Source: Thermoplasmata archaeon
GTDB lineage: Archaea; Thermoplasmatota; E2; JACPAO01; JAHFTW01
Length of the DNA stretch: 64,000 nt
Reading direction: 5' to 3'
NCBI GenBank assembly: GCA_023269235.1
Contig: JAHFTW010000002.1
Span: 55,294-119,293 of the forward strand
Shown in pieces: positions 9,921 through 38,976 of the stretch. The notes beneath the pieces were generated by a model. That model searched no databases. It worked only from the letters and a program-made list of their open reading frames with translations, and was not told the DNA's origin. Position 1 is the stretch's first letter, and each line of letters starts with the position of its first letter. A program made the position numbers and the translations under genes.

Positions 9921-10832
9921 ATGACTTCCTCCTTTGCGGTTAGCAACAAGGACCATGAGAAGGTCGTCGCCCAATGGGAGCTCGAGTACCGGATCCCGGA
10001 ATCAAAGGGGAGCTCCGTGCTGTCGGCCCAAGCTCAATTCTCCCAGATTTGTAGTGCCTTGAAGGGAATTGTCAGCCCCGGCAAAACTGCGGTTCCCTTC
10101 TCACGTGTCCGCACGGTTCAGGGAGGCGTGCTGCTGCACGGGCCTCCCGGCTGCGGAAAGACCCATTTGGTTCAGGCCGCCGCTGGCGAACTTGGTCTGC
10201 CGCTGTTCGTTGCGCAACCAGCGCACGCAGTGGGAGTCTACTTCGGTGAGACCGGACGTGCATTGACATCCCTGTTTGAAGCTGGGCAGCGGGTCGCTGC
10301 CAAAGGGAAGGGGGCCGTTCTTTTCTTAGACGAGCTGGAAGCGTACGGCCGCAGGAGCGCGAATCCAGATGCCATCGCGTACAACATGATGATGGCGAAC
10401 GTGCTCAAACTCATCGACTTAGCCTCGGCTGCCGAAGGAGGCAATCGATTGGCCATCGTGGGTGCCACGAACATGCCGGATGCCTGCGATCCCGCCCTGC
10501 TCAGCCGGATGTCAACCCGTCTCGAAATCCCAATTCCGGATTCAATCTCGCGTCGGGCCTTCTTTGAAGGCAACATCGCGGACGCCCGCGCTGCGGGGTT
10601 CGACATCGACCCGCAAAATCGAATGGAAGCCCTCGTGTCCGCGACTGATGGCTTGAGCACGCGCGCCCTGAGTCAACTCTTGGACGCCGTGAACGCTCTG
10701 GTCCTGTCGGGCGACGGCGCCGCCTCGCTGGGACGCATGGACCTGCTGGACGCGCTAACCATTGTCGTAGAAGCAAAGGGATCGACTGAAGCGGATCGCC
10801 GATTGCGGGAAGGGTTTGGGGGTTACACCTAG
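9921..10832 (+). CDS. AAA+ ATPase
   Basis: Walker A GPPGCGKT, Walker B AVLFLDELEA, sensor GATN, Arg-finger region SRMSTRLEIPIPD. Confidence 0.92.
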   Translation: MTSSFAVSNKDHEKVVAQWELEYRIPESKGSSVLSAQAQFSQICSALKGIVSPGKTAVPFSRVRTVQGGVLLHGPPGCGKTHLVQAAAGELGLPLFVAQPAHAVGVYFGETGRALTSLFEAGQRVAAKGKGAVLFLDELEAYGRRSANPDAIAYNMMMANVLKLIDLASAAEGGNRLAIVGATNMPDACDPALLSRMSTRLEIPIPDSISRRAFFEGNIADARAAGFDIDPQNRMEALVSATDGLSTRALSQLLDAVNALVLSGDGAASLGRMDLLDALTIVVEAKGSTEADRRLREGFGGYT

Positions 10833-11740
10833 TGTTGCTTCACCGCTTCCCCGACTTCCAACCTCTCCAATTGCACCATCGAGCCGACGTCGAACTAGCG
10901 CTTTCACGCACGAGCGCGTATCTGCCGCCATCTGATTTCCATCCCACCTCGCTCCTGGTGTGGGGAGGAAGCGCAGCCGGAATCGCGAAGCTCGAGCATG
11001 GAATCGTGGTCCGACTCCCCGCCTATATACACGGCCGATCAGATGTTCTCACTTGGTTGGCACCCCACACAAGCCACGATGAACTTGATGCTCTGACGAA
11101 ATTTGCTGTCACGGAGGGTTTGTCACTGGAGTTGCTCCCGGAAGCTACCGCTGCCGGTCTGCCTGCCAAAACCGTCGTGCTTCTGGACACTCCAGGTCAC
11201 TCCGATTACATTTACGAGACGACGGAGACCGCAACTCTCGTAGGCAATGAATGGCGCAAGAAACGGCGTGATCTCGAACGGTTCATCGGCGGTGCTGGCC
11301 GCAGCGCGCGCACCGGGTTGATGGATCTCGCCAATCCAAAACACCGAAATGAATGTCGCCAACTTTTTGTGGAGTGGATGTCCCACAAAGGGGGAAAAGC
11401 CGCCAACGCCAATGAGTGGCAAGCCTTCGAACGGTTTTCACAAATCGCATACAGCCTGAATCTAACTACGATTGGCGTATGGCTCAATGGGGCACTCAGT
11501 GCATTCTCCATTGGGGAATCCTTCGGTCCAAGCGGAGCCACGTTCCACTTCGAGAAAGCCATGCCCGGAGTAGCCGGCCTAACCACGCATCTCCGAACCA
11601 CCCTTTGCCGCGAGCTGGCAAAGAATGGAGCAGACTGGATCAACGGTCAACAAGACCTTGGCGTTCCAGGCCTCAAGCACTCAAAGCGCTCATGGCAGCC
11701 CACGACAATGCTGCAGAAATTTTCCCTGCCGAACCACTAG
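10832..11740 (+). CDS. DUF2156-like (MprF C-terminal/FemABX, GNAT-fold) acyltransferase
   Basis: C-terminal NGQQDLGVPGLKHSKRSWQPTTMLQKFSL resembles the DUF2156 NxEQDLGxxGLRxxKxS motif; GTG start overlaps AAA+ stop (TAGTG). Confidence 0.7.
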   Translation: MLLHRFPDFQPLQLHHRADVELALSRTSAYLPPSDFHPTSLLVWGGSAAGIAKLEHGIVVRLPAYIHGRSDVLTWLAPHTSHDELDALTKFAVTEGLSLELLPEATAAGLPAKTVVLLDTPGHSDYIYETTETATLVGNEWRKKRRDLERFIGGAGRSARTGLMDLANPKHRNECRQLFVEWMSHKGGKAANANEWQAFERFSQIAYSLNLTTIGVWLNGALSAFSIGESFGPSGATFHFEKAMPGVAGLTTHLRTTLCRELAKNGADWINGQQDLGVPGLKHSKRSWQPTTMLQKFSLPNH

Positions 11741-12703: not shown

Positions 12704-15700
12704 TTATTGCATCAATTGACGAATCGCTTGATTAGCAAGAAGAATTTCCACGAGTTGCGGCAATTCTTTTTCCTTTTTCATTGCGAGGCTAACAAGCTGT
12801 GCCGAGAGAACCTTATCGCCGCCCTTGGCAGCGAGTACCGCATGCACAAGCATGAGGCCGGGGCTGCACGTCAGAAGAAGGTCGTTGGCTGGAAGCGCCG
12901 GGAGCTTTTGCGCAAATTCCTGCTCAGCTCCAACAAGGATGCTCGCGGCCACGAGTTCAGTCCGCCACCCAACAGTGTCCCGCCCCGGTTCTTCGCCCAT
13001 TTTTTCAATCAATTCTCGAGCGCCCCTCAGAAGCTCCAATGCCGGGGGTAGCAGTTTGGGCGACTGCCCGATTGCCACGGCAAGAAGCATATCGGCCCCC
13101 GGATGCAACGGCGCGTTCTGGTCTGTAGCGTGCTTTTTGCCTTCGGTAACGACGCGGTCCGCACTAACAGGGTCGCCAACCCGAAGGAGGAAAGCCGCAT
13201 ACTTCGAGCGATATCCAAATGGATTTCCTGCAATTACATCCCCGGCCTTGATCGCATTGCGGAAAGCTGCATCCGCCTTGAGCCGCATGTGGCCCAACAC
13301 AATTGAGGTCGAATTGGGAGGCGCTCTCAAGAAACCCGGGGCCACAAATTCGGAGTATGCGTTTGCGTAGGCGCTATGGAAACGAGTTTCGTTGATTTCC
13401 CTGCGACGGGCGTCGTTTGCAAAACAGTGTTGCAAACCGGCAATCGCTTCTTGCGGCCTTCCTCTAAGCGTAAGGAAGTTTGCAAACTCGACCGCAGTCC
13501 CGCCCAGCATCGACGCATGGACTGTCCCGAACTCCAAGCCCTTGCCACCCGGCCAGGCGCTACCCAAGATTTGCCGGAATAAAGGCTCGGCTTCCGTGGT
13601 TCCCGCCAAGTCCCCTCGCTTGGCGAGGGCCTGCGCTAGTCTACGGGCGTTTGCTGCGGTTCGTTGGTTTTGAAAGGTCTGTCTTATTTCGTCAATAGCT
13701 TCGGTTCCCCGAACGAATTGCGCCTTGAATAACTTCAATTTATGTTTGATGGCGGGACTTTCTGGATTGGCAACTATAGCCTCGTCAAGGCGGTCAGATG
13801 CCTCTTTTTTTCGACCGCGTTCCTGAAGGTGATGAACATGCTGTTCCCACAGGGATTGCGCGGAAGGATGGTCTTTTAGCCAGGTGTATACGGCTTTCAA
13901 CACCCCGTTTTTCTGTTCGGCTGATATGGCCAATTTGTCATGGCGACCAAGACTCCAGCCTGCCCATGCAATCCAGGTCTGCTCCCCCATGTCATCTTGG
14001 TTCCGCGTGGTCCAGTCGTTGACCGTCGTGAAGACCTTGCTTGCAAGGTTGAGCAGCGTACTGCGTTCGGCAAGCTTCAGAGTTGCAACGACCTCCGGCC
14101 CGCCTCCATCGTCTTTTTCGAGTCTTTTCAAGAATGCTTCAAGGACCCGCCGTTGATCCGATTCAAGCGGGAGTACGTCCACGGCGACCTGCCATGCCCC
14201 ATATGGCAAGCGATAGATGTTGTCTTGCAGGAATGATACCCAGGTTCGGCGATGCCGCAAGCTCGCCTGCATCGTAGGCTTCGGCTGTCCGTCCTTGTTG
14301 GTGTCGCTACAGCATTCGTGGAGCAAAACCGCTGTGGTGCCATCGAGCCCCTCGCTGTTCGCAAGCTCCAAGAGTTCTGCAAAGGCCTGATCCACATCGT
14401 CCTGCACACGTTCGCGTCTCGCGTAATTCAAAATCGCGCTTAGCACAGCTCGATCGTCTGGATGACTGTATAGCCAGGCCTTTGCGGCGTTTTTGGCAAT
14501 CGACTTCTCATGGTCTGACCCTTCTCGGCCGTGCGCGGCTTTCAACTGGAGCAAAACATCTTCTGTTGTCTTTGGAGTCGTTAGCACTATGCGGAGCACC
14601 AACTCCTTCGGCGATGCCTCGACGGGAACGGCCGAAGGTGCCATGGCCGCAATCGCACTCGGCGTAATTTGGGCAACCTCCACTTCCCTCAATTTTATTC
14701 GTGATTTCTGCACTTGTTCAGCAGGCAACTCCATCTCAATTCCCTGAAGAACATCTTTCGCCAGTTTACCATGTTCTCCGCCAACGGTCTCACTAATCAC
14801 TTTCCAGGTGCCAAACAAAGTCCATTTGAGGTTCAATCCCCAGTCCCACGCGATTTGAGCGGCGCGTGAGTTTGGGGCCCCCAAATAATCGCCGTCCCTG
14901 TGAACCAGGCCTGATGTCAAGACGGGCAAGAGCTCGGAGTCAGGCCAGATTTGACGCGCGACCGCGACCGGCAAGCGCAGGCCAAATCTGCCACCAAGGA
15001 AAATGGCACCCATGACCGGCCATGCGTCGCGACTCCCGCTGAAGTCCACCAATCTCTGTTGAAGCGCTTCAGGTCGGCCGTTGGACAAGAACCACGAAAC
15101 GTCGCCAATCGCCAGCGGGCTATGGTCTTCCACAAGCCGCGCGGCCTCGTTAGGATTAGGCCTGGGTGTCAGGGTGGCATCCAGCAGCGCTTCAATCGAG
15201 TTACGGAGAGTTCTTTTTTCAGGTGCCTGTGGTGCATCGAGCGGGATTGGTTCCGTCTTTGGGTGCGCACATTTTGCTGTGACCACCGTCAACCGCGGTT
15301 GGAATTGTCCTCCAAGGAGAACGTCTGCCGCGTCTTTTGTGACTTCCTCTACAACAACCATAGCCCGGCGCACAGCCCCGAGGTCGTTGATGATTGCCCG
15401 CCATGCCCCTGTTAGCGTCGGATCGTCGATGCGATACACAGGACACGCCTTGGTTGCTGCATCGCGTGACGATGCATGCGCAATTGCCAATAGCATTGCA
15501 GATTTTCCTGTAGGTCCTTCGCCAGTCAGTAAGAATATCTTCGGCCCAATGTGGGTCTCCTTAAGCTTCTGAAGAATGGCATCAAAATTGGGGCGCCGAT
15601 GAGCAGCGGGCGAGCTCACTACTCCAAGGGTTGCGGGCAAGCTCCCCTGATAGAAGGACACCAGTTCCGGGGGCGTGGCTGGCGTGACTTGATCCGGCAC

Positions 15701-16303
15701 GATGTGGAGGTACCCGGGGTCCTTGGGAATAACTTCGCCTGCGTAGATTGCCAGTGCATCCTGTTGCGGCCGCGTCCATTCTTGTGCTTGGAATCCCGCG
15801 TCCCAGCTTGCCACCAAATTGGCCAGGTCCAACGCGGTCGTGACCACTGTGTCTTGGCCCGTCTTATCCGGCACACTCGGCCGCCCGGGCAGCCAGTAGA
15901 TGCCGCGAAACCGATTGTCCTCAAAGGCGCCGTTCCGCAAGCCAGGAAACGCGTCATTTTCGATTCCGTTTAGGTTGCCATTGTTTTTCTCGAATTCAGC
16001 CTTCAGGCGCCGAATACCCCTATCGATTTGAATTGAAGGTGCCGTGCATTCTCTGCCATGGACGAGATTCTTCGCATGGAGGTTGGTCGCACCTTGATAC
16101 GTCTTCAACTCGACTACGAAGACAAGTTTCTTGCCGATGATTATGAAATCCGTTTCCAGGTTGGAAGTGTGCCGATGCGGAGGAATGAGAATGCAGTTCA
16201 CGCTTGCATTCGCCTGAAGCGCCGCGTTCAGATCACGAAAATGCTTCCGCTCGTCGCCCTTGGTACCAACCGTGCTTGCATCCCGCGGCGTTCGAACGGC
16301 CAT
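12704..16303 (-). CDS. NERD-domain + P-loop NTPase (STAND-like) + TPR-like repeat protein, 1199 aa
   Basis: N-terminal NERD pattern (KHFRDLNAALQANASVNCILIPPHRHTSNLETDFIIIGKKLVFVVELKTYQG), P-loop LLTGEGPTGKS, acidic Walker-B-like AMVVVEEV, long helical repeat C-terminus. Confidence 0.8.
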   Translation of the reverse strand: MAVRTPRDASTVGTKGDERKHFRDLNAALQANASVNCILIPPHRHTSNLETDFIIIGKKLVFVVELKTYQGATNLHAKNLVHGRECTAPSIQIDRGIRRLKAEFEKNNGNLNGIENDAFPGLRNGAFEDNRFRGIYWLPGRPSVPDKTGQDTVVTTALDLANLVASWDAGFQAQEWTRPQQDALAIYAGEVIPKDPGYLHIVPDQVTPATPPELVSFYQGSLPATLGVVSSPAAHRRPNFDAILQKLKETHIGPKIFLLTGEGPTGKSAMLLAIAHASSRDAATKACPVYRIDDPTLTGAWRAIINDLGAVRRAMVVVEEVTKDAADVLLGGQFQPRLTVVTAKCAHPKTEPIPLDAPQAPEKRTLRNSIEALLDATLTPRPNPNEAARLVEDHSPLAIGDVSWFLSNGRPEALQQRLVDFSGSRDAWPVMGAIFLGGRFGLRLPVAVARQIWPDSELLPVLTSGLVHRDGDYLGAPNSRAAQIAWDWGLNLKWTLFGTWKVISETVGGEHGKLAKDVLQGIEMELPAEQVQKSRIKLREVEVAQITPSAIAAMAPSAVPVEASPKELVLRIVLTTPKTTEDVLLQLKAAHGREGSDHEKSIAKNAAKAWLYSHPDDRAVLSAILNYARRERVQDDVDQAFAELLELANSEGLDGTTAVLLHECCSDTNKDGQPKPTMQASLRHRRTWVSFLQDNIYRLPYGAWQVAVDVLPLESDQRRVLEAFLKRLEKDDGGGPEVVATLKLAERSTLLNLASKVFTTVNDWTTRNQDDMGEQTWIAWAGWSLGRHDKLAISAEQKNGVLKAVYTWLKDHPSAQSLWEQHVHHLQERGRKKEASDRLDEAIVANPESPAIKHKLKLFKAQFVRGTEAIDEIRQTFQNQRTAANARRLAQALAKRGDLAGTTEAEPLFRQILGSAWPGGKGLEFGTVHASMLGGTAVEFANFLTLRGRPQEAIAGLQHCFANDARRREINETRFHSAYANAYSEFVAPGFLRAPPNSTSIVLGHMRLKADAAFRNAIKAGDVIAGNPFGYRSKYAAFLLRVGDPVSADRVVTEGKKHATDQNAPLHPGADMLLAVAIGQSPKLLPPALELLRGARELIEKMGEEPGRDTVGWRTELVAASILVGAEQEFAQKLPALPANDLLLTCSPGLMLVHAVLAAKGGDKVLSAQLVSLAMKKEKELPQLVEILLANQAIRQLMQ

Positions 16304-17243: not shown

Positions 17244-17825
17244 ATGAACAAGGACAGCGCCAACCCGACCTACACGCCCGCCACCGCTGACCAAAGGACC
17301 GCGGGGGACAAGGCCTTCGAGCAGGCACTTCACGACAAGACGCCGATTCCTGTTTCCCCCGACGGCACCCCCGGCTTTGGTTACAGCGGCCCACAGGTGG
17401 CGCCGCGAGGGTGGTGGGCGTGGAACGACGATCCCCGCATGGAGGATCGGTCCGCCGCAGAAGTCGCGGCCATGCGCTACTTCCCGGGATTCAAGATTTA
17501 CCGCGAGCCGGACGGTGCGCGACGGTGGTACTGGGCCGGCCAAGTCAAGAGTGACTCAGGCCACACCTACGATTTGGAAATCACGTACCCTGACAACTTC
17601 CCGGTCCAGTCACCCGTTGCCTTCATCCCGAATCTGCCGCTCAAGAACGTCTCGGAACTTCACAGGTTCAAGGACGGGCAATTGTGCCTATTTAAACCAG
17701 GGGAACGCGGGATTGAGCCCGGACAGACCGCTGCGGACATCGTGCGACGCGCCGCCCTATGGGTCCGTGCCTATGAGTTTTTTTGCAGAAATTCATACTG
17801 GCCAGGCCCGGCGGCATCCCACTAG
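17244..17825 (+). CDS. prokaryotic E2-like (UBC-fold) protein
   Basis: GHTYDLEITYPDNFPVQSPVAFIPNLPLKNVSELHRFKDGQLCLFKPGERGIEPGQTAADIV; YPxxFPxxxP plus G-x-LCL catalytic-Cys motif (Cys148, codon 17685-17687). Confidence 0.8.
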   Translation: MNKDSANPTYTPATADQRTAGDKAFEQALHDKTPIPVSPDGTPGFGYSGPQVAPRGWWAWNDDPRMEDRSAAEVAAMRYFPGFKIYREPDGARRWYWAGQVKSDSGHTYDLEITYPDNFPVQSPVAFIPNLPLKNVSELHRFKDGQLCLFKPGERGIEPGQTAADIVRRAALWVRAYEFFCRNSYWPGPAASH

Positions 17826-17837
17826 GAGACTGACACC

Positions 17838-19394
17838 ATGACGACCCCAACCCCTGCACAAGCCGACAACCGAACCTCCGGCGACAAGGCCTTCGAGCGA
17901 GCCCTTCACGAACAGAAGGCGATCCCGGTTTCGCCCGACGGAACCCCGGGTTTCGGTTACGACGGCCCCACCATTGAACCGCGCCCCTGGTGGTCTGCGC
18001 CGATGCGGCTTCTGAACTCCCGAGCTCGGCAACGGGTCGGCGAGATTCGTCTGACTCGCCAGCAGTACGAAGCCATTCGAAACGAAGTTTTGCAGAAGGC
18101 GCCCTTGGAGACGGGTGGCGTGGTCATTGGCCAGGTCGCGCCGTCCGGACGAGACTTCGATGTCGTGGCCGTCACAGGCCCCGGGCCGAATGCGATCCAT
18201 GAGCGCTACCACTGCAGCATTGACGCTGACTACGCGCAACTGCACATGCGAGCTTTGTCCGAGGACAAACGAAACGTGCCGGCTGCTGACTGGCATTCTC
18301 ATCCAGCGGGTCTTCGAGTGCCATCTGGGCCCGACCAGGCAGCGATGGCACAACTGGAAGCCGACGGGTACGCCTTGCGTGCACACCTCATCGCCACAGT
18401 CGATACCGAAGGCTTCCACCTCGACGGTTTCATCAAGCGTCTCGGCTGCAAAATTGAACCCGCTCGGATTGTGTTCGTCGAACCTGATCCCCACGCCTTG
18501 TTCCAGCGCCTTCGAGGCTTGGCTGGCGTGGACACACTCGTCAAACGCGAAGTCATGATTGTTGGGGCGGGCTCCGGGAACAGCCTTGTCGTTGACGGGC
18601 TCGTGCGCGCCGGCGTAGCCTCTTTTAGTCTCGTGGACCAGGATGTCGTCTCCACTCCAAACTTGGTACGCGGCATCTTCGAAGCGCGCGATGTAGGCCG
18701 ACTCAAAACTGAGGTTCTGCGCGACCGCATTCTCTCCATCAATCCTCGCGCGCACGTCGCAACCTTTTCTCACACTATTCAAGAAAAGCAAGACGCGCTG
18801 GAGATCGCCGCGGAATCCGCGGATCTCATCATTTGCGGCACCGACAGTCAAGACGCCAACCACAGCGTCAACCGCCTCGCCCTGAAGGCCGGCAAGCCAG
18901 CCGCTTACGGTGCCGCTCTTCCTGAAGCCTATGGGGGAGATTTCGTCTTGGCTTTGCCTGGGCAGGCCTGCTACGCGTGCGTAATGAGCGCAATCAGCAC
19001 CCCAGAGAGCGCGCCCGGAGCCCCTCAACCGCGTGGCATCAACTACGCGAGCGGAGCCGCCGCCGCGTTGCCGCCCCAGCCAGCCCTTGGAGTCAACGTT
19101 TCAATCCTCGCGGGAGTTTTCACCAAGCTTTGCCTTGATTTCCTCATGGCAGGCACCGGTCCTTCCAAGGGAAACGTCCTGTTCTACGGCATCGAACCCA
19201 AGCCGCCGTTCACCGATAGTTTCCAGACCATTTGGCAGGAAGTGCTTCGCAAGCCAGGTTGCCCAGCGTGCATGACTGATGACGAGTTCGCCGCACGACA
19301 GGGCGAAAGACCGCATGGGGTTCCCGCCTCGTTGGCCGAAATTATTCGGAGCGCAAAGCCGAAGGCACGCATCGTGCCACTGGACGCTGCCTAA
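17838..19394 (+). CDS. fused JAB/MPN(+) peptidase - E1-like (ThiF/MoeB) protein
   Basis: JAMM motif E..(LETGGVVIG)...HSHPAGLRVPSGPD; E1 nucleotide-binding VMIVGAGSGNSLVVDGLVRAGVASFSLVDQDVVSTPNLVR; CYAC...CPAC zinc site. Confidence 0.88.
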   Translation: MTTPTPAQADNRTSGDKAFERALHEQKAIPVSPDGTPGFGYDGPTIEPRPWWSAPMRLLNSRARQRVGEIRLTRQQYEAIRNEVLQKAPLETGGVVIGQVAPSGRDFDVVAVTGPGPNAIHERYHCSIDADYAQLHMRALSEDKRNVPAADWHSHPAGLRVPSGPDQAAMAQLEADGYALRAHLIATVDTEGFHLDGFIKRLGCKIEPARIVFVEPDPHALFQRLRGLAGVDTLVKREVMIVGAGSGNSLVVDGLVRAGVASFSLVDQDVVSTPNLVRGIFEARDVGRLKTEVLRDRILSINPRAHVATFSHTIQEKQDALEIAAESADLIICGTDSQDANHSVNRLALKAGKPAAYGAALPEAYGGDFVLALPGQACYACVMSAISTPESAPGAPQPRGINYASGAAAALPPQPALGVNVSILAGVFTKLCLDFLMAGTGPSKGNVLFYGIEPKPPFTDSFQTIWQEVLRKPGCPACMTDDEFAARQGERPHGVPASLAEIIRSAKPKARIVPLDAA

Positions 19395-20719
19395 TGCCCG
19401 GACCCATGGCACCCCCGCCGGGGTGGGGTACAACCGGGGAAAGGCAGACTGTCAGCTCGGAGCCGCCGACATCCAGCTGGGAACCATTGCCAAATTCTCA
19501 GCAGCGGGAACGCGTTTTCTCACCTGCTCCGAGACGCGGCTCTCGCTTGGCGAGGGGGATTATGCGCGTTGGCGCATTTTTTGCCGCTGGCGTTGTCCTG
19601 ATTGCGGTATTCGCTTTGGTCGGCTCCGGACTTGCCGCATTATCATCACAGCCTTGGTCGACTTCCTCCCCGCACAGCGAAGCAACCGCAACTCAGGCAC
19701 CATTCGTAGCCCTGTCACCAATTTCGGTGACTGGTCACCTGCCATCGCCTCGCTACGCTGCCGCGGCCGCGTGGGTTGGCAATCAAGTCATCGTCGTTGG
19801 AGGGGCCATTGACAAGACGCACTTCGTTGATGAAATTGTCTCCTACGCCCCGATCAACAATGTTGTCCACACCATGACGACTCACCTACCTGAACGATTG
19901 GCCTACACAAGCCTGGCCTGGGACGATTCCTCCGGAACGTTGTACATCCTTGGCGGACAACGTGAAAACGGGTCTTTCTCATCGGCGATTCTTCGATACG
20001 ATCCGATGCGGGACGCCTTCATGCAATCCGCATCCACTCTGCCCGAGGGGCGTTGCTGCGGGACGGCGTTCTGGGACAGACAACGCGTGATCTACGTTGG
20101 CGGTTACGCCACTGGGCCGAACGGGAATGAATACGCAGGCGTCGATAGTTTCAACCCTTCCACTGGCGAGGTCTCGACAATCTCCCACGACTTGCCGGGC
20201 GTCTTGCTTGCAGGGCGAGGCCTGGCCTCCGCCGGAAACGCTTGGGATGGTCACTACCTCTACTTGATGGGCGGCCAATCTCCATCATATTCCAACTACA
20301 TCGGGGAGGTCACACGCCTTGACCCGTATGGCGATGTCGTCGAACGAGTGGCCCAGAATGGGTCGTGGGAAGTTCCGGATCAACTTTACAGTGGCAAGCA
20401 AGTGCTGGAATCGGACTCCTGTTGTGGTTCGGCGTGGTGGGATTCCACTAACCAACGCGTCATTTTGGCAGGAGGCATCGATGTCGATTGGCAAGGCTCG
20501 ACCACAAGTCGAAACACCTATGCGTTCGACCCAGCCACCAAGGCCATCCAGAAACTGCCGTGGAGTCTTCCAGAGCCGCGCTCGCACGCGGGGACCGCAT
20601 CATTCAACGCTGGAAACTGCGCCTTGATCTTTGGTGGATACGATGGAAGCACCGCGATGGACTCCATCCTCCAATTCGAGGCGACTGGAGAGTCCTGCCG
20701 ACAAATCGTACGAAGGTAG
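19394..20719 (+). CDS. membrane-anchored Kelch-repeat beta-propeller protein
   Basis: Cytoplasmic-like N-terminus, one TM (MRVGAFFAAGVVLIAVFALVGSGLAAL), repeated Kelch units (VIVVGG, LYILGGQ, VIYVGGY, LYLMGGQ, VILAGGI, LIFGGYD); TAATG overlap with JAB-E1 gene. Confidence 0.85.
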   Translation: MPGPMAPPPGWGTTGERQTVSSEPPTSSWEPLPNSQQRERVFSPAPRRGSRLARGIMRVGAFFAAGVVLIAVFALVGSGLAALSSQPWSTSSPHSEATATQAPFVALSPISVTGHLPSPRYAAAAAWVGNQVIVVGGAIDKTHFVDEIVSYAPINNVVHTMTTHLPERLAYTSLAWDDSSGTLYILGGQRENGSFSSAILRYDPMRDAFMQSASTLPEGRCCGTAFWDRQRVIYVGGYATGPNGNEYAGVDSFNPSTGEVSTISHDLPGVLLAGRGLASAGNAWDGHYLYLMGGQSPSYSNYIGEVTRLDPYGDVVERVAQNGSWEVPDQLYSGKQVLESDSCCGSAWWDSTNQRVILAGGIDVDWQGSTTSRNTYAFDPATKAIQKLPWSLPEPRSHAGTASFNAGNCALIFGGYDGSTAMDSILQFEATGESCRQIVRR

Positions 20720-20760: not shown

Positions 20761-21570
20761 ATGAGAACTCTACAACCTCTGGACGGGGAGACCACTTCGT
20801 GGCGCGGCTCCCCGCATTTCATGTCCTTCTTGCCGTTCTTTTCACCTTGGCTAGGTTTGCTCGTTTGGGGACTTGCGTTTCCAACTCTCTGGCCTTCTTG
20901 GCCATCAGGGTTCAAGTTCGTTGCATGGCTAGGAGTCGGAATCCTCATTCTGGTTGCTACCGCATATTTCGCGCTTCGAGCGGCCTATCTTGCGGGCGGA
21001 TTCGGTCTACTCGCTGCCATTGTCTCGAGCCAAAGCTTTGGCTGGAATTCACCTCCCATCCTGGCGGCCGAAGTGGCCGCCATCGGAGCCCTGGGAATCA
21101 TCGGCACTGAATTTTGGCGCCGAAGCCACATCTATTGCCTGACGAACTATCGGATTTCTGTAAAATCTGGTGTTGTCAAGCGCCGAGAACGCAGCATCAG
21201 GTACAACGCAATTTCTGATCTCCACGTTCAGCAGGGGCTATTGGGGCAGCTCGCGGGATACGCAAGCATCGTCCCGGTGACCAACAGTGGCCTAGGTCTG
21301 GGGAGTGATTTTGCAATGGCTGGAGCGGCGTTCAACCTGCAGCGCCTTCGTCGGTCTCTTCCATTCACGCTTGGCGGCGGTGGAGGCCACAGCCGAAACG
21401 CTGCAAAGGTAGCTCCCGGCGATTGTCTTTTCGGAGTCCGCCCAGCCGAAGGTGTACACCACTTCATTGAGGCTAGAATCCACGAGCACTCTCCAATCGC
21501 CCATTCCATCAACCAGGTCAGCGCGCTTGGCCGCATCGAACGGTTGCTGCAACAGCGGATGCAGCAATAG
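20761..21570 (+). CDS. membrane protein with bacterial-type PH (bPH2/DUF304-like) domain
   Basis: Several TM helices then YCLTNYRISVKSGVVKRRERSIRYNAISDLHVQQGLLGQLAGYASIVPV, bPH2-like. Confidence 0.7.
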   Translation: MRTLQPLDGETTSWRGSPHFMSFLPFFSPWLGLLVWGLAFPTLWPSWPSGFKFVAWLGVGILILVATAYFALRAAYLAGGFGLLAAIVSSQSFGWNSPPILAAEVAAIGALGIIGTEFWRRSHIYCLTNYRISVKSGVVKRRERSIRYNAISDLHVQQGLLGQLAGYASIVPVTNSGLGLGSDFAMAGAAFNLQRLRRSLPFTLGGGGGHSRNAAKVAPGDCLFGVRPAEGVHHFIEARIHEHSPIAHSINQVSALGRIERLLQQRMQQ

Positions 21571-24358: not shown

Positions 24359-25852
24359 ATGACCCCTGAGGTCGTAGCCGGAGCGCCAGACACTGAGGAG
24401 CAGAAACGCCGTCTGCGCCAGGAGATTTCCATCCGCTTACACCTCGACTCGCGAGCTGCTGCTCACGACGACCAGTTCTGGAAGGAGGTCGGTCTCGCGC
24501 ACCAGAGCGCCGACCCGAAAGCCAGCACTGCTCAACTCGCTACCCTCGTTCTTAGGAAACTGGGCGCGGCCGACGACGAGAGTGCCGACTTTGCCGAGGA
24601 AGGCGGCAAAGCCGTCAACATCGCCGCCCACGAATGGCTCCTGGCCTACCTGATGGACGCCGGAGACCGTGCCGAAGGCACCGAGGAGGGGGACGAAGAC
24701 GACGACGGAAACCTGGCTCGCGAGCAGCAGATCCTCGTTGCCAATCAGGACAATCCCATCCAGAGCATCGTCCAATTCATTGAGGACGGTACAATCGTCC
24801 TTGATCCCGACTGGCAACGTGGCTACGTGTGGAAACAGCGCCAAAAACGCCGGTTCATCGAATCCGTCTTCCTCAACCTCCCCATTCCGCCAGTCCTGCT
24901 CTTCCAGGACCAGCAGACCAAGAAGATGTTCGTCATTGACGGTCGCCAACGTTTGGAGACGGTATACCGATTCCGGAAAGGCTCGAAGGAGAAGAAAGAG
25001 TCCTTCCGCACATACGGCCCGAAACAGCCCGGATGGACGCCAGCGGACAAGCTGAACCCGGCTGCCAACAAGTACTTCGACAAGCTGCCCGAAGAAATGC
25101 AGCGCCACTTCAACACATTCGTCATCCCGGCGCGCGTCTTCATGAATCTCCCACGCCGCACGCTCTACGAGGTCTTTCGGCGATACAACACGGGTTCGGA
25201 GAAGCTCCGGCCGGCCGAAATCCGCAAAGCGGTCTACCAGGGCGCACCACTCCACGAAATGATGTACGAAATTGCGGGCGAAGCCGGCGTGGAGGCAATC
25301 TCCGACGAGCGCGAACGGGAAGTAGCCCGCGTCCTGGAGGACACGATGCGCGGCAAGAAGGCCCGATACGGCGCATACAACTTCGTGGGGCGTTGCCTCG
25401 CCTTTGCCAACGTCAAGGACGAGATGTCGGTGGCAAACGCCATCAACCGGTTCATGGACGACTTCGCAAAAGACGATGCACAAAAGTTCCGAGAGCAGTT
25501 CATTCGCGCACTCGAGACAACCCTTGTCTGGTACGCTCAACACCATCCGCTGTGCACGACCGACAGCGAAGGCAAGCGCGTTGCGTTCCATGAGTGGATT
25601 GCAACAATCCAGGTCGCCTCCACTATGGCGGCGCTCAACAAGATTGATGCTGGTGAATTGACCGAAGAGGCGGCGATGGAGACCGTGCGAACGCGGTGGG
25701 ACGCATTCGTCTACGGATCGTGGAACGACCAGGCCAAAGCAAACATCGGCGGCGTGCTGCAGGAGAAACAAAACACGACTACGCATTGGCAAAAACAGCG
25801 CGACTGGATTGCCATGCTCGTCGGCCCCGAAGCCACCGTCGCAGCCCAGTAA
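24359..25852 (+). CDS. DUF262-domain protein (ParB-like/GmrSD N-terminal type)
   Basis: IQSIVQFIEDGTIVLDPDWQRGYVWKQRQKRRFIESVFLNLPIPPVLLFQDQQTKKMFVIDGRQRLETVYRF, canonical DUF262. Confidence 0.9.
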   Translation: MTPEVVAGAPDTEEQKRRLRQEISIRLHLDSRAAAHDDQFWKEVGLAHQSADPKASTAQLATLVLRKLGAADDESADFAEEGGKAVNIAAHEWLLAYLMDAGDRAEGTEEGDEDDDGNLAREQQILVANQDNPIQSIVQFIEDGTIVLDPDWQRGYVWKQRQKRRFIESVFLNLPIPPVLLFQDQQTKKMFVIDGRQRLETVYRFRKGSKEKKESFRTYGPKQPGWTPADKLNPAANKYFDKLPEEMQRHFNTFVIPARVFMNLPRRTLYEVFRRYNTGSEKLRPAEIRKAVYQGAPLHEMMYEIAGEAGVEAISDEREREVARVLEDTMRGKKARYGAYNFVGRCLAFANVKDEMSVANAINRFMDDFAKDDAQKFREQFIRALETTLVWYAQHHPLCTTDSEGKRVAFHEWIATIQVASTMAALNKIDAGELTEEAAMETVRTRWDAFVYGSWNDQAKANIGGVLQEKQNTTTHWQKQRDWIAMLVGPEATVAAQ

Positions 25853-25854
25853 CC

Positions 25855-28452
25855 ATGAGCCAAACCTCAGCCCCCATTTTCCTGTGGCCGGGCGAGATTG
25901 AGCGCCCTGACCCAGACTCGTACGTCCCGCCAAGCGGTGCGTGGTGGGCGCAGTACATGGCCTCACTAGCACCCGCGATTGCCAAAGGGCAAATGTCATC
26001 GGCGGCCATCGAAGAACTTACACGCTCGTCCCGCCGCATTGGCGCGCTATTACCTAACCCTCGCGAATGGACTCGCCCTAAGCCGTGGAAGGGCCTCGTT
26101 GTGGGCTCGGTGCAGAGCGGCAAGACGCAGAGTATGATGGGTGTCGCTGCAGTTGCTCTCGACGCGGGCTATCGATTCATCATTGTACTGGCTGGCTTGA
26201 AGGACGACTTGCGCACGCAGACGGGCCGCCGGTTCAACACCCAGCTTCTCCTGAACAACGACATGGTGCCCGGAACTCAAAACGCGACCACCATGAAAGG
26301 CCCTCGCGGACCGCAAGGAAAGTGCCGCGCATTCGCCCAGCCATACTTTCGAGATTGCACAGATGATGCGTCCCTGGCAGTTGTTCTGCCCACCGTCGTC
26401 AAGACGCAGCCCGTCGTCCTTGTGATCAAGAAGAGCCCAACGAGTCTCGCGTTCGCCAGGCGCCTCCTGCGCGCCGTCTACCAAAGACACGGCTTTGACA
26501 AAGTTCCCACCTTAATCCTCGATGACGAATGTGATGAAGCCTCGGTGCCAGGCGGATCAGCCGAAGAAAAACCCGTGCCAGAGGGAATCACGGGCCTGTG
26601 GGAAAACATGGACCAGCTCCCGAATGTTGCATATGTAGGCTACACGGCCACGGCTGCAGCCAACCTATTGCAAGATCCGGCATGGCCTTTGTTCCCCGAT
26701 TTCGTTTGGCTTCTGCGAAGTCCCGGCGATGAGGACTCCGATTTGGAGTACCGCGAGCCCGCGGCAGATTCATGGTACTCGGGCGGCGACTGCTTCTACG
26801 AGGATTTCGGGGACGATGCCCGGGAGGACTCCAACTTCCTAGTTGCAGCCACAATCACCGACGACGATTTGGCGAAAGCGCCAGAAGAAAACCAAAGCCT
26901 CGCCGACGCGATCCGCGCCTTCTTCGTCGCCGGGGCCTATCGACTTGTGCTTCAACCCGGCACAGCCCTGGCCGGGGACGCACCGAGGCCAGACCCTCAC
27001 TCAATGATGATTCACACCTCCGCCGTTCAGGATGACCACGACACCTGGCTGGCTGGGCTGCTGGCGACTTGGGGGGAAGCCCGCACGCCGGAAGGTGTTC
27101 TAACGCTTGGGCCCTCAAGACTGAGTCAGGATTTGGCCGAACACGAAGGCAACTGGAAATCCTGGTTCGACCGCTTCTCGGCCGCCCGCAGCCGAATCTA
27201 CGATGACCGGCCGCGACCCGCACCCTTCAGCCAGCCGTCGTGGCAAACCGTGAAGGGTCGGCTTCCCGAGGCCTTCGCACACTCGCGGGTGAAGGTCGTT
27301 AACTCCAACGTCGGCGAATTCCTGGACTACGACAAGGCGCTCGCCGCCGACGGGCGGGAACTCCCTCCACAGGACGTGTACGTCATTGCAATTGGTGGCT
27401 CTCGTCTATCGCGAGGAATCACCGTCAAGGGATTGGGCATCTCCTATTTCGCCCGCTGGGCTGTCAACAGATACGAAGACACGCTGCTGCAAATGAGCCG
27501 ATGGTTTGGGTACCGTGGCCCCCATCTCGAATTTTGCAGAGTTTTCCTCACGCCGGACGCATACCGCGGCCTCCGGGAAATGAGCGAAAATGACCGCCGC
27601 ATTCGCCGCCGCCTAGCAGAACTCATGCGCGCTAGGTCTTCACCAGCTGAAGCTACCATCGTATTTCGAGCAAGCCCAGAAGTCCTTCCAACAGCCAAGC
27701 TTGGTGCGGGAAAGATTCGTCATCTGGCATTCAGCCCGTTCACGCACGCATTCACGGATGTCCGCTACGGAACGCAGGACGCCACCAATCAAGACTGGGC
27801 AGAAAAGGTAGCCAATCTCATACAACAACGGACTCACGTACGCGCAACAACCGACAGCGGCACGCTACGTGGTTTGTACACAACCGAGCTAACCGCATTG
27901 GAGGTGGCCGACCTTCTCGACGGCATCGGCTACGAAACCCACAACCCCGACGACGATGAGAACGTCCACGAAGGCCGATTCCGCAAGCCCGACCGTTCCC
28001 GTCCCGCGGCGATTAGGCTACAGGCGGGGAGCGACCCCTACCACGTCGCTTCGTACCTTCGGTATTGGCACACCATCGATCCCGGCAATACGCCAGTATT
28101 CAACGTCGGTATCTCCCAGGGTGAAATGGTGGACCACGCCAAACCATTCACCTTCCCGCTCGTCAACCGCGAGGTCACGCCCGAAGGACGCGTCGAGGGA
28201 AGCTGGACGGGCCCAAGTTCCGGTTGGCCCGGTGACTTCTACTTCGACAGGCCCCCTGTAACTCAGCATCTTGGACGGAGTGAGCGCGCGCAGGGCGCGT
28301 CCGGCCTGCTACTCCTGTATGTCATTCACAAGGCCGCAACAGGCAAGAATCAGAAGGGAACTCCGCGGCCCTATCACACACCGATGATCTGCATCAGTAT
28401 CCCCGCAGGAGGCCCGCACTTCACCAGAGTCGTGCGCAGAGGACGGACATGA
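25855..28452 (+). CDS. Z1-domain ATPase
   Basis: WKGLVVGSVQSGKTQSMMGVAAVALDAGYRFIIVLAG...LRTQTGRRF; IAIGGSRLSRGITVKGLGISYFAR...DTLLQMSRWFGYRG, Z1 signature; 2-nt gap from DUF262 gene. Confidence 0.9.
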   Translation: MSQTSAPIFLWPGEIERPDPDSYVPPSGAWWAQYMASLAPAIAKGQMSSAAIEELTRSSRRIGALLPNPREWTRPKPWKGLVVGSVQSGKTQSMMGVAAVALDAGYRFIIVLAGLKDDLRTQTGRRFNTQLLLNNDMVPGTQNATTMKGPRGPQGKCRAFAQPYFRDCTDDASLAVVLPTVVKTQPVVLVIKKSPTSLAFARRLLRAVYQRHGFDKVPTLILDDECDEASVPGGSAEEKPVPEGITGLWENMDQLPNVAYVGYTATAAANLLQDPAWPLFPDFVWLLRSPGDEDSDLEYREPAADSWYSGGDCFYEDFGDDAREDSNFLVAATITDDDLAKAPEENQSLADAIRAFFVAGAYRLVLQPGTALAGDAPRPDPHSMMIHTSAVQDDHDTWLAGLLATWGEARTPEGVLTLGPSRLSQDLAEHEGNWKSWFDRFSAARSRIYDDRPRPAPFSQPSWQTVKGRLPEAFAHSRVKVVNSNVGEFLDYDKALAADGRELPPQDVYVIAIGGSRLSRGITVKGLGISYFARWAVNRYEDTLLQMSRWFGYRGPHLEFCRVFLTPDAYRGLREMSENDRRIRRRLAELMRARSSPAEATIVFRASPEVLPTAKLGAGKIRHLAFSPFTHAFTDVRYGTQDATNQDWAEKVANLIQQRTHVRATTDSGTLRGLYTTELTALEVADLLDGIGYETHNPDDDENVHEGRFRKPDRSRPAAIRLQAGSDPYHVASYLRYWHTIDPGNTPVFNVGISQGEMVDHAKPFTFPLVNREVTPEGRVEGSWTGPSSGWPGDFYFDRPPVTQHLGRSERAQGASGLLLLYVIHKAATGKNQKGTPRPYHTPMICISIPAGGPHFTRVVRRGRT

Positions 28453-29492
28453 ACGACATCGAAACCCTCGTCAAACGCTTCGAAAGCCTCCCTTCTGCGC
28501 GCGAGGGCCGGTGGAGCGTCGACCCCCTGGTCGAGAACCGGGTCTATCTGACCCGGAGCGACGATGCCCGGAACGCTCTTTTCATCGTCGGTCCCCTCGC
28601 TTCGTTTGGTACTTACCCCAAGAGTCGCGCGATTCAACATGCCTCAGGAGTCGTACCAGTTCCCGGCGGCAACCCCATCGAAGCGTTGAGGCTCACAAGT
28701 CCCGCTGGCGGATACGGAAACCGTGCGGTCGCCCACGTCGCCTACGAAATCTTGGCGCTCCTTTCCACCAAGCCCAGTATCCCCAACGCGGACCTGGTCG
28801 CCCAAGTGAGTTGGGTGCTTGAGTTGCTCTCTTCCCAGGAAGCCACGATGCCCCCAGACCAGCAGAAGGGACTGATTGGCGAACTGCTTTTGCTCCGTAA
28901 GTTGATTGTTGTGGCACAGAGCGCCGGCCTGCCAACGCGCGAAGCCCTGCGACGCTGGATGGGCTGGGACAAGGCCAAACGAGACTTTGCCGCAGAGGGC
29001 CTGGCGATTGAAGTGAAGGCTACCGCTCTTGCGACGCGTCGCCATCACATCGGCAGCATAGACCAACTTGAAACCCACGGTCAAGAGACCATTTTCCTAT
29101 TCTCGGTGGGGGCCAGACTGGATCCCACCGCGCCCCGCAAACTCCCGGACATCGTCAACGAATGCCGCCAACTGCTCCTGTCTCTCGATGGGTCGCCAGA
29201 CGAAGACGCACGAATGCAATACGACGAAGTTGTCCAGCGTTACGGATACGACGCATCTCAGGAAGCGGTCTATCGAGCACTGCCTGGTGTCCTCAACTTC
29301 CACTTGCCCCCTCGATTCTATCGTGTCAGTGATCTCGACCGGTTGCGCCTTACGTCCTTCAAGGGCGATGCACCGCCGTCGATGGTCAGTGAAGTGTCCT
29401 ACGTGTTGGACGTGCGAGCCACGGAATTGTCCCCTGGCGAGGAACAGGAGCTCCTCCTGTCCCTTCTACGCTCCCCGGCAACCGGAGCTTGA
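28449..29492 (+). CDS. PD-(D/E)XK-type DUF4420 protein
   Basis: QQKGLIGELLLLRKLI...WMGWDKAKRDFAAEGLAIEVKATALATRRHHIGSIDQLE, DUF4420 signature; 4-nt overlap with Z1 gene. Confidence 0.85.
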   Translation: MNDIETLVKRFESLPSAREGRWSVDPLVENRVYLTRSDDARNALFIVGPLASFGTYPKSRAIQHASGVVPVPGGNPIEALRLTSPAGGYGNRAVAHVAYEILALLSTKPSIPNADLVAQVSWVLELLSSQEATMPPDQQKGLIGELLLLRKLIVVAQSAGLPTREALRRWMGWDKAKRDFAAEGLAIEVKATALATRRHHIGSIDQLETHGQETIFLFSVGARLDPTAPRKLPDIVNECRQLLLSLDGSPDEDARMQYDEVVQRYGYDASQEAVYRALPGVLNFHLPPRFYRVSDLDRLRLTSFKGDAPPSMVSEVSYVLDVRATELSPGEEQELLLSLLRSPATGA

Positions 29493-29544
29493 ACGTAGGC
29501 CAGACCGCGCAACTGACCACCTGCCGCCTTGGACTGAAAGCCAA

Positions 29545-30858
29545 TCACGACGCGGCTAGCGCCGCCTTGGCAATCCGCTTCACTACGCCAACATGCACCG
29601 CGTTGCCGAGGGCCGCGAACGCCTCTGCCCGGGCGCCAGGCAGTTGGTGCTCGTCCGGGAACCCCTGCAAGCGAAGTCCTTCAATGCGCGTAAGGTACCG
29701 CTTCTCGGGGCCCAGAATTGGAACCTGCGTCGACGTCATGGCGACCAATGCCGGTGAAGCGTTGTACCGCTTGGCGCGAAGTCCCGACGGCCGGAATTGA
29801 AGGACCTTCGTCCAGAGGTCCCGCTCTTCGTTCATGCAATTCCATTCAAGTTTTCGCAGGCTGGCCGGGAACTTTTTGAGAGTCTCAAGCCACCCGCCGG
29901 GGGCATGGGCAAGGTTTTCCCCAAACCAGTCTCGCGAGTCCCCAATCATGGCCACTTTCCACGAGGGAAACTCCGCCACCGGCGTCCGGGCGTAAGATGG
30001 AAGCCCCTCAATGTATGCCTCTTTCGACGTGGTCGGCGGAAACTTCTGGGCTCCCACGTGGTCGCGGATCTTGTCTGCGCTCAGTCCCCACGGAGCATGG
30101 CTTCGGAACGGATACGTTTCCCAGGCTTCGTCGCCCCAAAGCGGCGAAAGGATCGGAGTCTTTTCTGGAACCGCTTTGATGAGGTTGTTCCAGTGGTTGA
30201 TGCAGCGCACCTGCTGATCGGAAAGGACCGTTTCGCGCTTGTGCGCAGCCGAAGGCGCCTCCTCAACGACTTTGGAAAGCGAAGTCTTCGGGGCCTGGCG
30301 AGCCGGGAATTCGACCGTGACATCCTCGCGCGTCGCTACGATGTAGAAACGCTCGCGTTGGTGTGGAAAGCCCAGGTGATGGGGCGAAATCAACCCGTTA
30401 CCTCCACTTGCCTTGTGCTCCGTCGCGCTCACGTGGTAGCCCGCGGTCTCCAGACCAATCTTGAGTTCGCGCCACGCTGCGCCCTTTCCAATCCGTCCGA
30501 AGTTGCCCACATTCTCCAGGAGGACGTACGACGGCTTTCGAGCACTAGCGATTTTCACAATCTGCCGCATGAGCTTGCCGCGGTTCTCGCGCCGCCCATG
30601 TTGCTTTCCGGACTTCGAGAAAGACGGGCACGGGAAGCCGCCAGCCAAGATGTCGTGTTTAGGGACATCGTCGACCGCCTTGACAATATCACCCTTGAGG
30701 TAACTCGCCGAGCCGTCGAAGTTCTTCTTATACAAATCCTGCAAACCCGGCACGATCTCCGAGGCGAACACACAATTGTGCCCAAGCCCATCGCCTAGTG
30801 CCCTATGAAAGCCGCCGAGGCCCGCAAACAGGTCGACGAAGTCGAGGGTCTCCGGCAT
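29545..30858 (-). CDS. DNA (cytosine-5) methyltransferase
   Basis: LDFVDLFAGLGGFHRAL, GGFPCPSFSKSGK, SYVLLENVGNF, m5C methylase motifs I, IV, VI. Confidence 0.92.
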   Translation of the reverse strand: MPETLDFVDLFAGLGGFHRALGDGLGHNCVFASEIVPGLQDLYKKNFDGSASYLKGDIVKAVDDVPKHDILAGGFPCPSFSKSGKQHGRRENRGKLMRQIVKIASARKPSYVLLENVGNFGRIGKGAAWRELKIGLETAGYHVSATEHKASGGNGLISPHHLGFPHQRERFYIVATREDVTVEFPARQAPKTSLSKVVEEAPSAAHKRETVLSDQQVRCINHWNNLIKAVPEKTPILSPLWGDEAWETYPFRSHAPWGLSADKIRDHVGAQKFPPTTSKEAYIEGLPSYARTPVAEFPSWKVAMIGDSRDWFGENLAHAPGGWLETLKKFPASLRKLEWNCMNEERDLWTKVLQFRPSGLRAKRYNASPALVAMTSTQVPILGPEKRYLTRIEGLRLQGFPDEHQLPGARAEAFAALGNAVHVGVVKRIAKAALAAS

Positions 30859-31551: not shown

Positions 31552-32634
31552 ATGCTATGTGTGCGGAAGAAGGACACGAGCAAGGGCTTCGACCCGAGGT
31601 GCCACGTGGACGACTCCATGCGGTCGCCGGCTCGCCACGCGTTTCGGTTGGACGGGCAACTGGACAAAGGCGTGCTCAGTCCGAATCTACACCAACTCAT
31701 CCTCACGATGGCGCGTGTACGAAACGTCGTCAGCAGCATGCTCATGGAAGGCGTGCGCGTCGATCTCACCGCAGCGCGGGCCGTCGTTGAATCTGGTAAG
31801 CCGACCACGGATAACGAAATCCAAGTCCTTCGCTTCGCTGAGCGCTACCGCTGGATTCACGAAACGCCAGCCGAGAAGCTTCCTGAACCGGACTTGAAGT
31901 TGGCTAAGGCGCTGCACAAGGAGCTCTTTGCTGGGCATGACGAGTACTTACCCGGAGAAGTCAAAGATGGCCCCAACGCGATTGTTGAGCCCATCACCGG
32001 CCGCGTGCTCTTCGAATGCACCCCGCCGGAGAGAGTCGAAGCCGAAATGGCGGCCCTCCAATCGTGGCTGAAATCAAAGAGCGAAACCGACCTCGAACCA
32101 GTAGTCGCCGCGATTTGGTTCGCCGAGTTCGAAGCCATCCACCCGTTCCGCGATGGCAACGGCCGGCTGGGACGACTCCTGAATCTACTCGTTCTCAAAA
32201 AACTCGGATTGGAGAACATCGTACTCGTGCCGTTGGACGCTCGGTTCTACCACAACCGCGACCGCTATTACGAACGTCTAGCCGCCACCAATGACGGAGT
32301 GATGTGGCACGTTTGGGGCAGGCACTACTGCAAGGAACTCGAAGCAGCGTATCGACAAGCCGTCTCGATGGGCGACCTGCAAGTTGTCCTGGATCAACAG
32401 ACCAGCAAGCCGACCCGGGCGGTCCTCGAATGGATCCTCCTGGGCGGCAATGCCTGGTTTGCCCGGGGAGATTACCCGAATCCCAAGAAGTTCAGTGACG
32501 TCTCCATCACGAAAGCATTGGCGGTGTTGACGCAGCAAGGCGTCCTTGAAGCCAAAGGAGAGAAACGCGGGCGTAAATACCGCGTTAGCACGGCGTACCT
32601 CAAGAAAATCTTTACCGGAGCGCTTCGGGAATAA
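31552..32634 (+). CDS. Fic-domain protein with C-terminal winged helix
   Basis: HPFRDGNGRLGRLLN Fic motif; SSMLMEG matches inhibitory (S/T)xxxE(G/N); C-terminal wHTH ITKALAVLTQQGVLEAKGEKRGRKYRVS. Confidence 0.92.
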   Translation: MLCVRKKDTSKGFDPRCHVDDSMRSPARHAFRLDGQLDKGVLSPNLHQLILTMARVRNVVSSMLMEGVRVDLTAARAVVESGKPTTDNEIQVLRFAERYRWIHETPAEKLPEPDLKLAKALHKELFAGHDEYLPGEVKDGPNAIVEPITGRVLFECTPPERVEAEMAALQSWLKSKSETDLEPVVAAIWFAEFEAIHPFRDGNGRLGRLLNLLVLKKLGLENIVLVPLDARFYHNRDRYYERLAATNDGVMWHVWGRHYCKELEAAYRQAVSMGDLQVVLDQQTSKPTRAVLEWILLGGNAWFARGDYPNPKKFSDVSITKALAVLTQQGVLEAKGEKRGRKYRVSTAYLKKIFTGALRE

Positions 32635-35931: not shown

Positions 35932-36351
35932 TCAGGTGCCGGGGGCTGAAGAAGGCGGTTTGGGCCGAATTCGGTTCTCCGCCCGGAACTCGTAGCCCTC
36001 GCTGCGCTTGTAGACCTGGAAGAAGAGGGAGTCGCGCTTGCCTTCGGCGCCGACCCAGCGCCAGATTTGGACGTCGTCGAAGCGGTCGTCCCAGGGAATA
36101 GCTTCGAGGGCCTCGATCTTGTTGCTGATCGTCGTGTGCTTCGTGACTTGCAACCAAAGGGTGCGCTCGCCCACCTTCTTTCCGATGAGATCGACGGCGC
36201 CGAAAACGTCGTTGCCATTGCTGCGCGGGCCGGCGGCCGTCATGTACGAGTTGCGAATCGTCCGGTGCATGGTCCAGCCCTGCCCCTGGTGCAGCTTGAG
36301 GACCTCCACCTCGAGCTTGCGGCCGATTTCGACCGGATTCTTCCGCTTCAA
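35932..36351 (-). CDS. putative PD-(D/E)XK-type nuclease (Holliday-resolvase-like)
   Basis: IGRKLEVEVLKLHQGQGW...NDVFGAVDLIGKKVGERTLWLQVTKH, E...D...(Q)xxK-like arrangement. Confidence 0.5.
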   Translation of the reverse strand: MKRKNPVEIGRKLEVEVLKLHQGQGWTMHRTIRNSYMTAAGPRSNGNDVFGAVDLIGKKVGERTLWLQVTKHTTISNKIEALEAIPWDDRFDDVQIWRWVGAEGKRDSLFFQVYKRSEGYEFRAENRIRPKPPSSAPGT

Positions 36352-38842: not shown

Positions 38843-38898
38843 GGGGAGCCCCCCGTAGTGGCGGCCGCCTTGACCTTGATGCCGTACACTCCGCGCTT

Positions 38899-38976
38899 TA
38901 CATTGGGTTTGGCGGGGGGAAAATCGCCACAAATAGGCACCCATACGGGGGAGCGTACCCCGCCAAACGCAATGTA
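38899..38976. repeat. large inverted repeat upstream of the recombinase pair
   Basis: TACATTGGGTTTGGCGGGG (38899-38917) versus CCCCGCCAAACGCAATGTA (38958-38976): 18/19 complementary, 40-nt spacer. Confidence 0.8.

Follow-up and report, generated by a model that had tools for sequence, protein, structure and literature searches.

The cassette described here lies in a 64,000-nucleotide stretch of a Thermoplasmata archaeon contig (the window, to which coordinates refer unless another locus is named). It consists of four genes, all on one strand and in operon-type order:

17244-17825, plus strand: E2-like (UBC-fold) protein, 193 aa; core at about residues 70-190, with His140 and a catalytic-type Cys148 (H-x7-C, GQLCL)
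17838-19394, plus strand: JAB-E1 fusion, 518 aa; N-terminal module, JAB/JAMM at about residues 75-186, ThiF/E1 at about 222-439, C-terminal CxxC
19394-20719, plus strand: Kelch beta-propeller protein (Kelch Pfam families), with a proline-rich N-terminal tail and one predicted TM helix at about residues 52-80 (hydropathy)
20761-21570, plus strand: bPH_2 membrane protein, 269 aa, with bPH_2 at residues 119-175 (Pfam, 8.4e-10; hydropathy)

A Shine-Dalgarno-like GGAGG or GGAG precedes the ATG of both the E2 and the JAB-E1 genes. The ATG of the Kelch gene shares one base with the stop codon of JAB-E1, and a 41-bp gap separates the Kelch gene from the bPH_2 gene.

The assembly, 92.6% complete, consists of 26 contigs totalling 1.96 Mb. 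In the window, GC content falls to 0.56-0.63 from about 8.6 to 42 kb, versus 0.64-0.70 on either side, and few genes of this stretch are picked up by a codon model that was trained on the window. Apart from the cassette, the stretch carries the following genes:

12704-16303, minus strand: NERD nuclease-like/STAND-type NTPase protein, 1199 aa, adjoining the cassette
24359-25852: GmrSD-N/DUF262 protein
ending at 28452: Z1 protein
28449-29492: DUF4420 PD-(D/E)XK protein
29545-30858, minus strand: C-5 cytosine methylase
31552-32634: Fic protein

Because of its lower GC and codon composition and its defence-type gene content, the stretch is read as an acquired (mobile) defence island. Within it, the adjacent DUF262/GmrSD-N, Z1, DUF4420 and C-5 methylase genes (24359-30858) form a restriction-type cassette, and at 9921-11740 an AAA ATPase gene is followed directly by one for a protein with an LPG_synthase_C (lysyltransferase-type) domain. 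Two overlapping ORFs on the minus strand at 36348-38944, one with a stretch that by eye resembles a tyrosine recombinase (HRRTF..LGHTG..Y), have no Pfam or PHROG match; they are possible integration genes of the island. Elsewhere the window has two paralogous PurP-type genes (50016-51182 and 59946-61043), separated by about 9 kb; PurP-type and archaeal-type GMP synthase subunit A genes mark the genome as archaeal.

The E2 has no Pfam match; it matches the PADLOC E2 families (E=1e-13) and aligns with the Cap2-type (CBASS) E2 domain through the His and Cys of H..GxLCL. The JAB-E1 protein matches Prok-JAB (2.3e-10, residues 75-186) and ThiF (1.2e-31, residues 222-439) in Pfam. Its JAMM pattern is complete (LETGG..HSHP..VPSGPD), and the residues of the E1 nucleotide site are present (GAGSGN..D.D....N..R..K..CGTDS). 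Judged by these residues, the cassette has ubiquitin-type conjugation and deconjugation motifs, in that the JAMM, the E1 nucleotide site and the E2 cysteine all look intact. CxxC pairs at 378/381 and 475/478 suggest a zinc site in JAB-E1. In the crossover region, the alignment has no cysteine where MoeB has one, so the E1 may pass its adenylate straight to the E2 or use another residue.

No ubiquitin-like protein (Ubl) family was found in the cassette or in the scanned flanking genes, a search that a divergent Ubl could escape. ThiS/MoaD (PF02597), found in 13 of 14 control genomes, gave nothing at E<=1 in this genome, at its 92.6% completeness, and the ubiquitin family (PF00240) gave nothing over the cut-off. 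The other clear E1 of the genome is MoeB-like, with a C-terminal stretch that resembles rhodanese by eye; it too (G000:C24, L058) has no ThiS/MoaD partner at E<=1 in this incomplete genome.

Several known systems resemble the cassette in part. In operon type 6e, a JAB domain sits on the N-terminus of the E1, beside a polyUbl and an E2/RWD protein (Iyer, Burroughs, Aravind 2006; PMC1779556). The cassette shares with it the N-terminal fusion of JAB to E1, a separately encoded UBC-fold protein alongside and a sporadic distribution. It differs in that no polyUbl gene is seen among the scanned flanking genes (again, a divergent one could escape), in that the type 6e E2/RWD protein lacks the catalytic cysteine whereas here Cys148 of GQLCL aligns with the Cap2 E2 cysteine, and in the Kelch and bPH_2 membrane proteins and the N-terminal module common to E2 and JAB-E1. 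CBASS type II (Cap2 E1-E2, Cap3 JAB) has the same sort of E2 core (H..GxLCL) and related ThiF and JAB domains, but there the E2 is fused to the E1 and JAB is separate, whereas here the E2 is separate and JAB is fused to the E1; in addition, no CD-NTase is present in the cassette or its nearest flanking genes, and the Cap3 model scores 17.9 bits against a cut-off of 200. Bil (BilABCD), too, has a defence context and groups an E1, an E2 and a JAB-type peptidase in a single operon. However, Bil has a two-domain Ubl (BilA-type), where none was found here, and an E1 with a second adenylation domain and a Cys domain, where here there is a single ThiF without a crossover cysteine; also, in place of the CEHH motif of Bil, the present E2 has no histidine shortly past its cysteine (PMC11354881). 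6A-MBL is an E2-E1-JAB triple fusion with an MBL, unlike the present separate E2 gene with no MBL adjoining, and its model (NF058523) scores 97 bits against a cut-off of 320. The closest plasmid E1 (38% over 182 aa of the ThiF core) belongs to a JAB/E2-like/E1 cassette of a Bradyrhizobium barranii plasmid (NZ_CP088281.1, L042). That E1 also lacks the crossover-loop cysteine, but JAB is separate from it and there is no common N-terminal module. On these sequence comparisons, at least one of the defining features tested is lacking for each of CBASS, Bil and 6A-MBL, and type 6e is matched in the JAB-E1 order but not in the active-type E2 or the absence of polyUbl.

Among the genomes of the phylum, searches with E2 and JAB-E1 gave no close relative. 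The plus-strand loci of ThiF matches that were inspected are of MoeB/ThiF types, some with a Ubl-like N-terminus, and no ThiF match of the phylum covers the JAB part of JAB-E1. Two genera have an E2-E1-JAB operon that is UFC1/UBA5-like (UFC1 4e-15):

L053:4453-5946, plus strand: UFC1/UBA5-like operon, JAB from 5867
L051:1894-2, minus strand: UFC1/UBA5-like operon
L052:6693-4459, minus strand: UFC1/UBA5-like operon

The E2 of these genomes (G296, G385 and G363) matches Pfam UFC1 at up to 4.3e-15 and shares an operon with JAB and with a ThiF E1 that is UBA5-like by eye. The E2 of G296 is preceded by a small ORF whose resemblance to UFM1 stays below the cut-off (Pfam E=0.19); a 2014 survey reported Ufm1 as absent from Archaea (PMC4327156).

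The E2 and JAB-E1 proteins of the cassette share a module at their extreme N-termini, which stops ahead of each catalytic domain:

17268-17420, plus strand: module copy A, E2 residues 9-59 (protein and DNA alignment)
17844-17996, plus strand: module copy B, JAB-E1 residues 3-53 (protein and DNA alignment)

The two copies align without gaps, with 36 of 51 residues identical (BLASTP, 80.9 bits, E=2e-22); the alignment score of 210 compares with a mean of 25.6 (s.d. 5.1, maximum 61) for 2000 shuffles. In DNA, the module appears as a 152-nt direct repeat (17266-17417 and 17842-17993) that is about 69-70% identical, and outside it identity drops to 22% in the 60 nt upstream and to 13-37% in 30-nt steps downstream, the homology breaking off sharply past the WW motif. 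These results bear out the earlier note, which had described a module of about 44 aa common to the E2-like and JAB-E1 proteins on otherwise unrelated folds: the module is real, the flanks are unlike, and its count of 32 identities in 44 is right. Its second segment (17862-17993) also stands, while its first was started one codon early, at 17283, and runs from 17286 to 17417. The module has three parts, GDKAFE[QR]ALH with the single lysine common to both copies, a Pro/Gly segment IPVSPDGTPGFGY.GP, and PR.WW. IPVSPDGTPGFGY, the longest stretch without a difference between the copies, is non-catalytic and falls in no Pfam domain. Single-sequence AlphaFold models, whose confidence is very low (mean pLDDT 38.8 and 36.1), both show coil after a helix (residues 15-31 and 16-24).

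The copies differ at 47 positions over 153 nt, of which 12, 8 and 27 are at codon positions 1, 2 and 3, respectively (third-position excess, p=6e-4). By the NG86 method, dN is 0.23 and dS is 1.37, giving a dN/dS of about 0.17, with a 95% bootstrap interval of 0-0.36 for this one sequence pair. The clustering of differences at third positions and the low dN/dS support, for the one pair at hand, selection on the protein as what keeps the copies alike, a view that the earlier note had reached from synonymous differences. Different codons are used at 16 of the 36 identical residues, versus 21.5 expected for independent draws from the codon usage of the cassette; synonymous sites are therefore near saturation but not at it. 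One stretch of 13 residues is identical between the copies with differing codons; a run of identical codons, GACAAGGCCTTCGAG, is also present, and there may have been partial gene conversion between the copies.

A two-row profile built from both copies finds only these two in their own genome, the next best place being C9:159797 (E=0.026). In 393 genomes of the phylum, its own included, four other matches (G181, G001, G081 and G115) reach E 0.002-0.009 with 17-19 bits, versus 124-129 bits for the true copies, and were judged chance. The weak matches in G001 and at C9:159797 were inspected and read as chance; those on the minus strand (G081, G115 and two weaker places in the own genome) were judged by score alone. 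Degenerate peptide scans of the GTDB representatives with the module alignment or a cassette protein gave no confirmed relative, and scans of viral contigs with the module, the cassette proteins and a PDGTPGFGY DNA pattern gave none; both kinds of scan need exact short peptides, and distant relatives are missed. Plasmids gave module matches only at E>=2, phages none and Pfam none, and the best match in PDB, a 34-residue peptide (E=0.024), was judged chance. In all searched sets the module occurs on this E2 and this JAB-E1 only, and a widespread unrelated linker, which the earlier note had named as a refutation, is excluded at the level of similarity searched, which a diverged module could escape. 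As to homologous cassettes lacking the module, no shared E2/E1 N-terminus is present in the UFC1/UBA5-like operons, the Bradyrhizobium cassette or two Cap2/Cap3 pairs. These distantly related operons do lack it, but they belong to other families, and because of that distance the idea of a module particular to this family is left unrefuted.

The earlier note had suggested a docking tag for a common scaffold, a membrane-partner signal, or a substrate or Ubl surrogate modified in cis. We favor, tentatively and at somewhat less than an even chance, the explanation that both copies stem from duplication of an N-terminal docking tag by which E2 and JAB-E1 co-assemble. The tag would consist of a short amphipathic helix (the GDKAFE part), a rigid Pro/Gly segment and a PR.WW anchor. 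As a binding element it would let both enzymes bind the same kind of site, so that a single assembly would carry out activation by the E1, transfer by the E2 and removal by JAB. The reasons for this preference are the N-terminal position of the module, the retention of residues while codons drift, the restriction to two adjacent genes, the non-catalytic nature of IPVSPDGTPGFGY outside Pfam domains, as expected of a binding motif, the two membrane-protein genes that follow, and the helix-then-coil form of both low-confidence models. The site would probably be on a partner from the cassette, the first candidates being the cytoplasmic tail of the Kelch protein and the bPH_2 protein. If the Kelch protein is oriented N-in/C-out, its propeller would be extracellular, which would leave only its tail, some 50 residues long, for binding. 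The searches gave no closely homologous cassette in which both tags might be seen to co-evolve with a partner.

Other explanations place the binding elsewhere. The N-terminal extension of UBC12 docks on the NEDD8 E1. By analogy, the E2 extension could dock in a putative groove of its own E1, with the JAB-E1 copy filling the same groove in cis or across an E1 dimer and so gating E2 recruitment. The tag carriers are exactly the two partners that need to meet, and nothing else in the genome carries it, but the groove is hypothetical and the AlphaFold models gave no interface, and we consider this mechanism unlikely. Alternatively, the module could bind a Ubl or a substrate, in a role like that of the UFM1-interacting sequence of UBA5, so that both enzymes hold the same modifier. 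Such a modifier must be held by E1 and E2 alike, and a short modifier-binding sequence is documented in the E1 UBA5 (PMC5428781). Against this stand the lack of a Ubl gene in the cassette and the empty ThiS/MoaD and ubiquitin-family searches described above, to be read with the incompleteness of the genome and the possible escape of divergent Ubls, and a modifier-binding role seems to us distinctly improbable.

The module may instead be a non-functional or weakly functional leftover of a segmental duplication of a 5' coding end, with no common binding site and only mild constraint, for example as a leader for expression, translation initiation or solubility. Such duplications arise easily between adjacent genes of one operon, and the DNA is still 69% identical and includes the GACAAGGCCTTCGAG run; nevertheless, the upper 95% bound of 0.36 on dN/dS and the 13 residues kept despite differing codons make this quite unlikely, if marginally less so than modifier binding. 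The module could also be the conjugated or cleaved polypeptide itself, a cis substrate auto-modified by its own E1, E2 and JAB, which would accord with the failure to find a dedicated Ubl. There is precedent in CBASS Cap2 for E1/E2 machines that conjugate a non-Ubl protein. However, the module is N-terminal rather than C-terminal, has no Gly-Gly-type end, offers one common lysine only and has no predicted beta-grasp elements, and of the explanations considered we regard this as the least probable.

To return to the docking tag, its fullest form is that one duplicated tag brings both the JAB-E1 and the stand-alone E2 to a Kelch/bPH_2 membrane scaffold without a conventional Ubl. This would be a previously undescribed archaeal membrane-anchored conjugation machine, a proposal that we hold to be doubtful as a whole, if a shade less so than docking in an E1 groove. 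Stand-alone prokaryotic E2s must locate their E1 without a Cap2-type fusion, and a shared, selected tag would be a simple and testable answer. It would also offer a way to trace the partner and the modifier that are missing from Ubl-less cassettes. If the docking tag is real, E1-E2 pairing can evolve through duplication of a short docking element.
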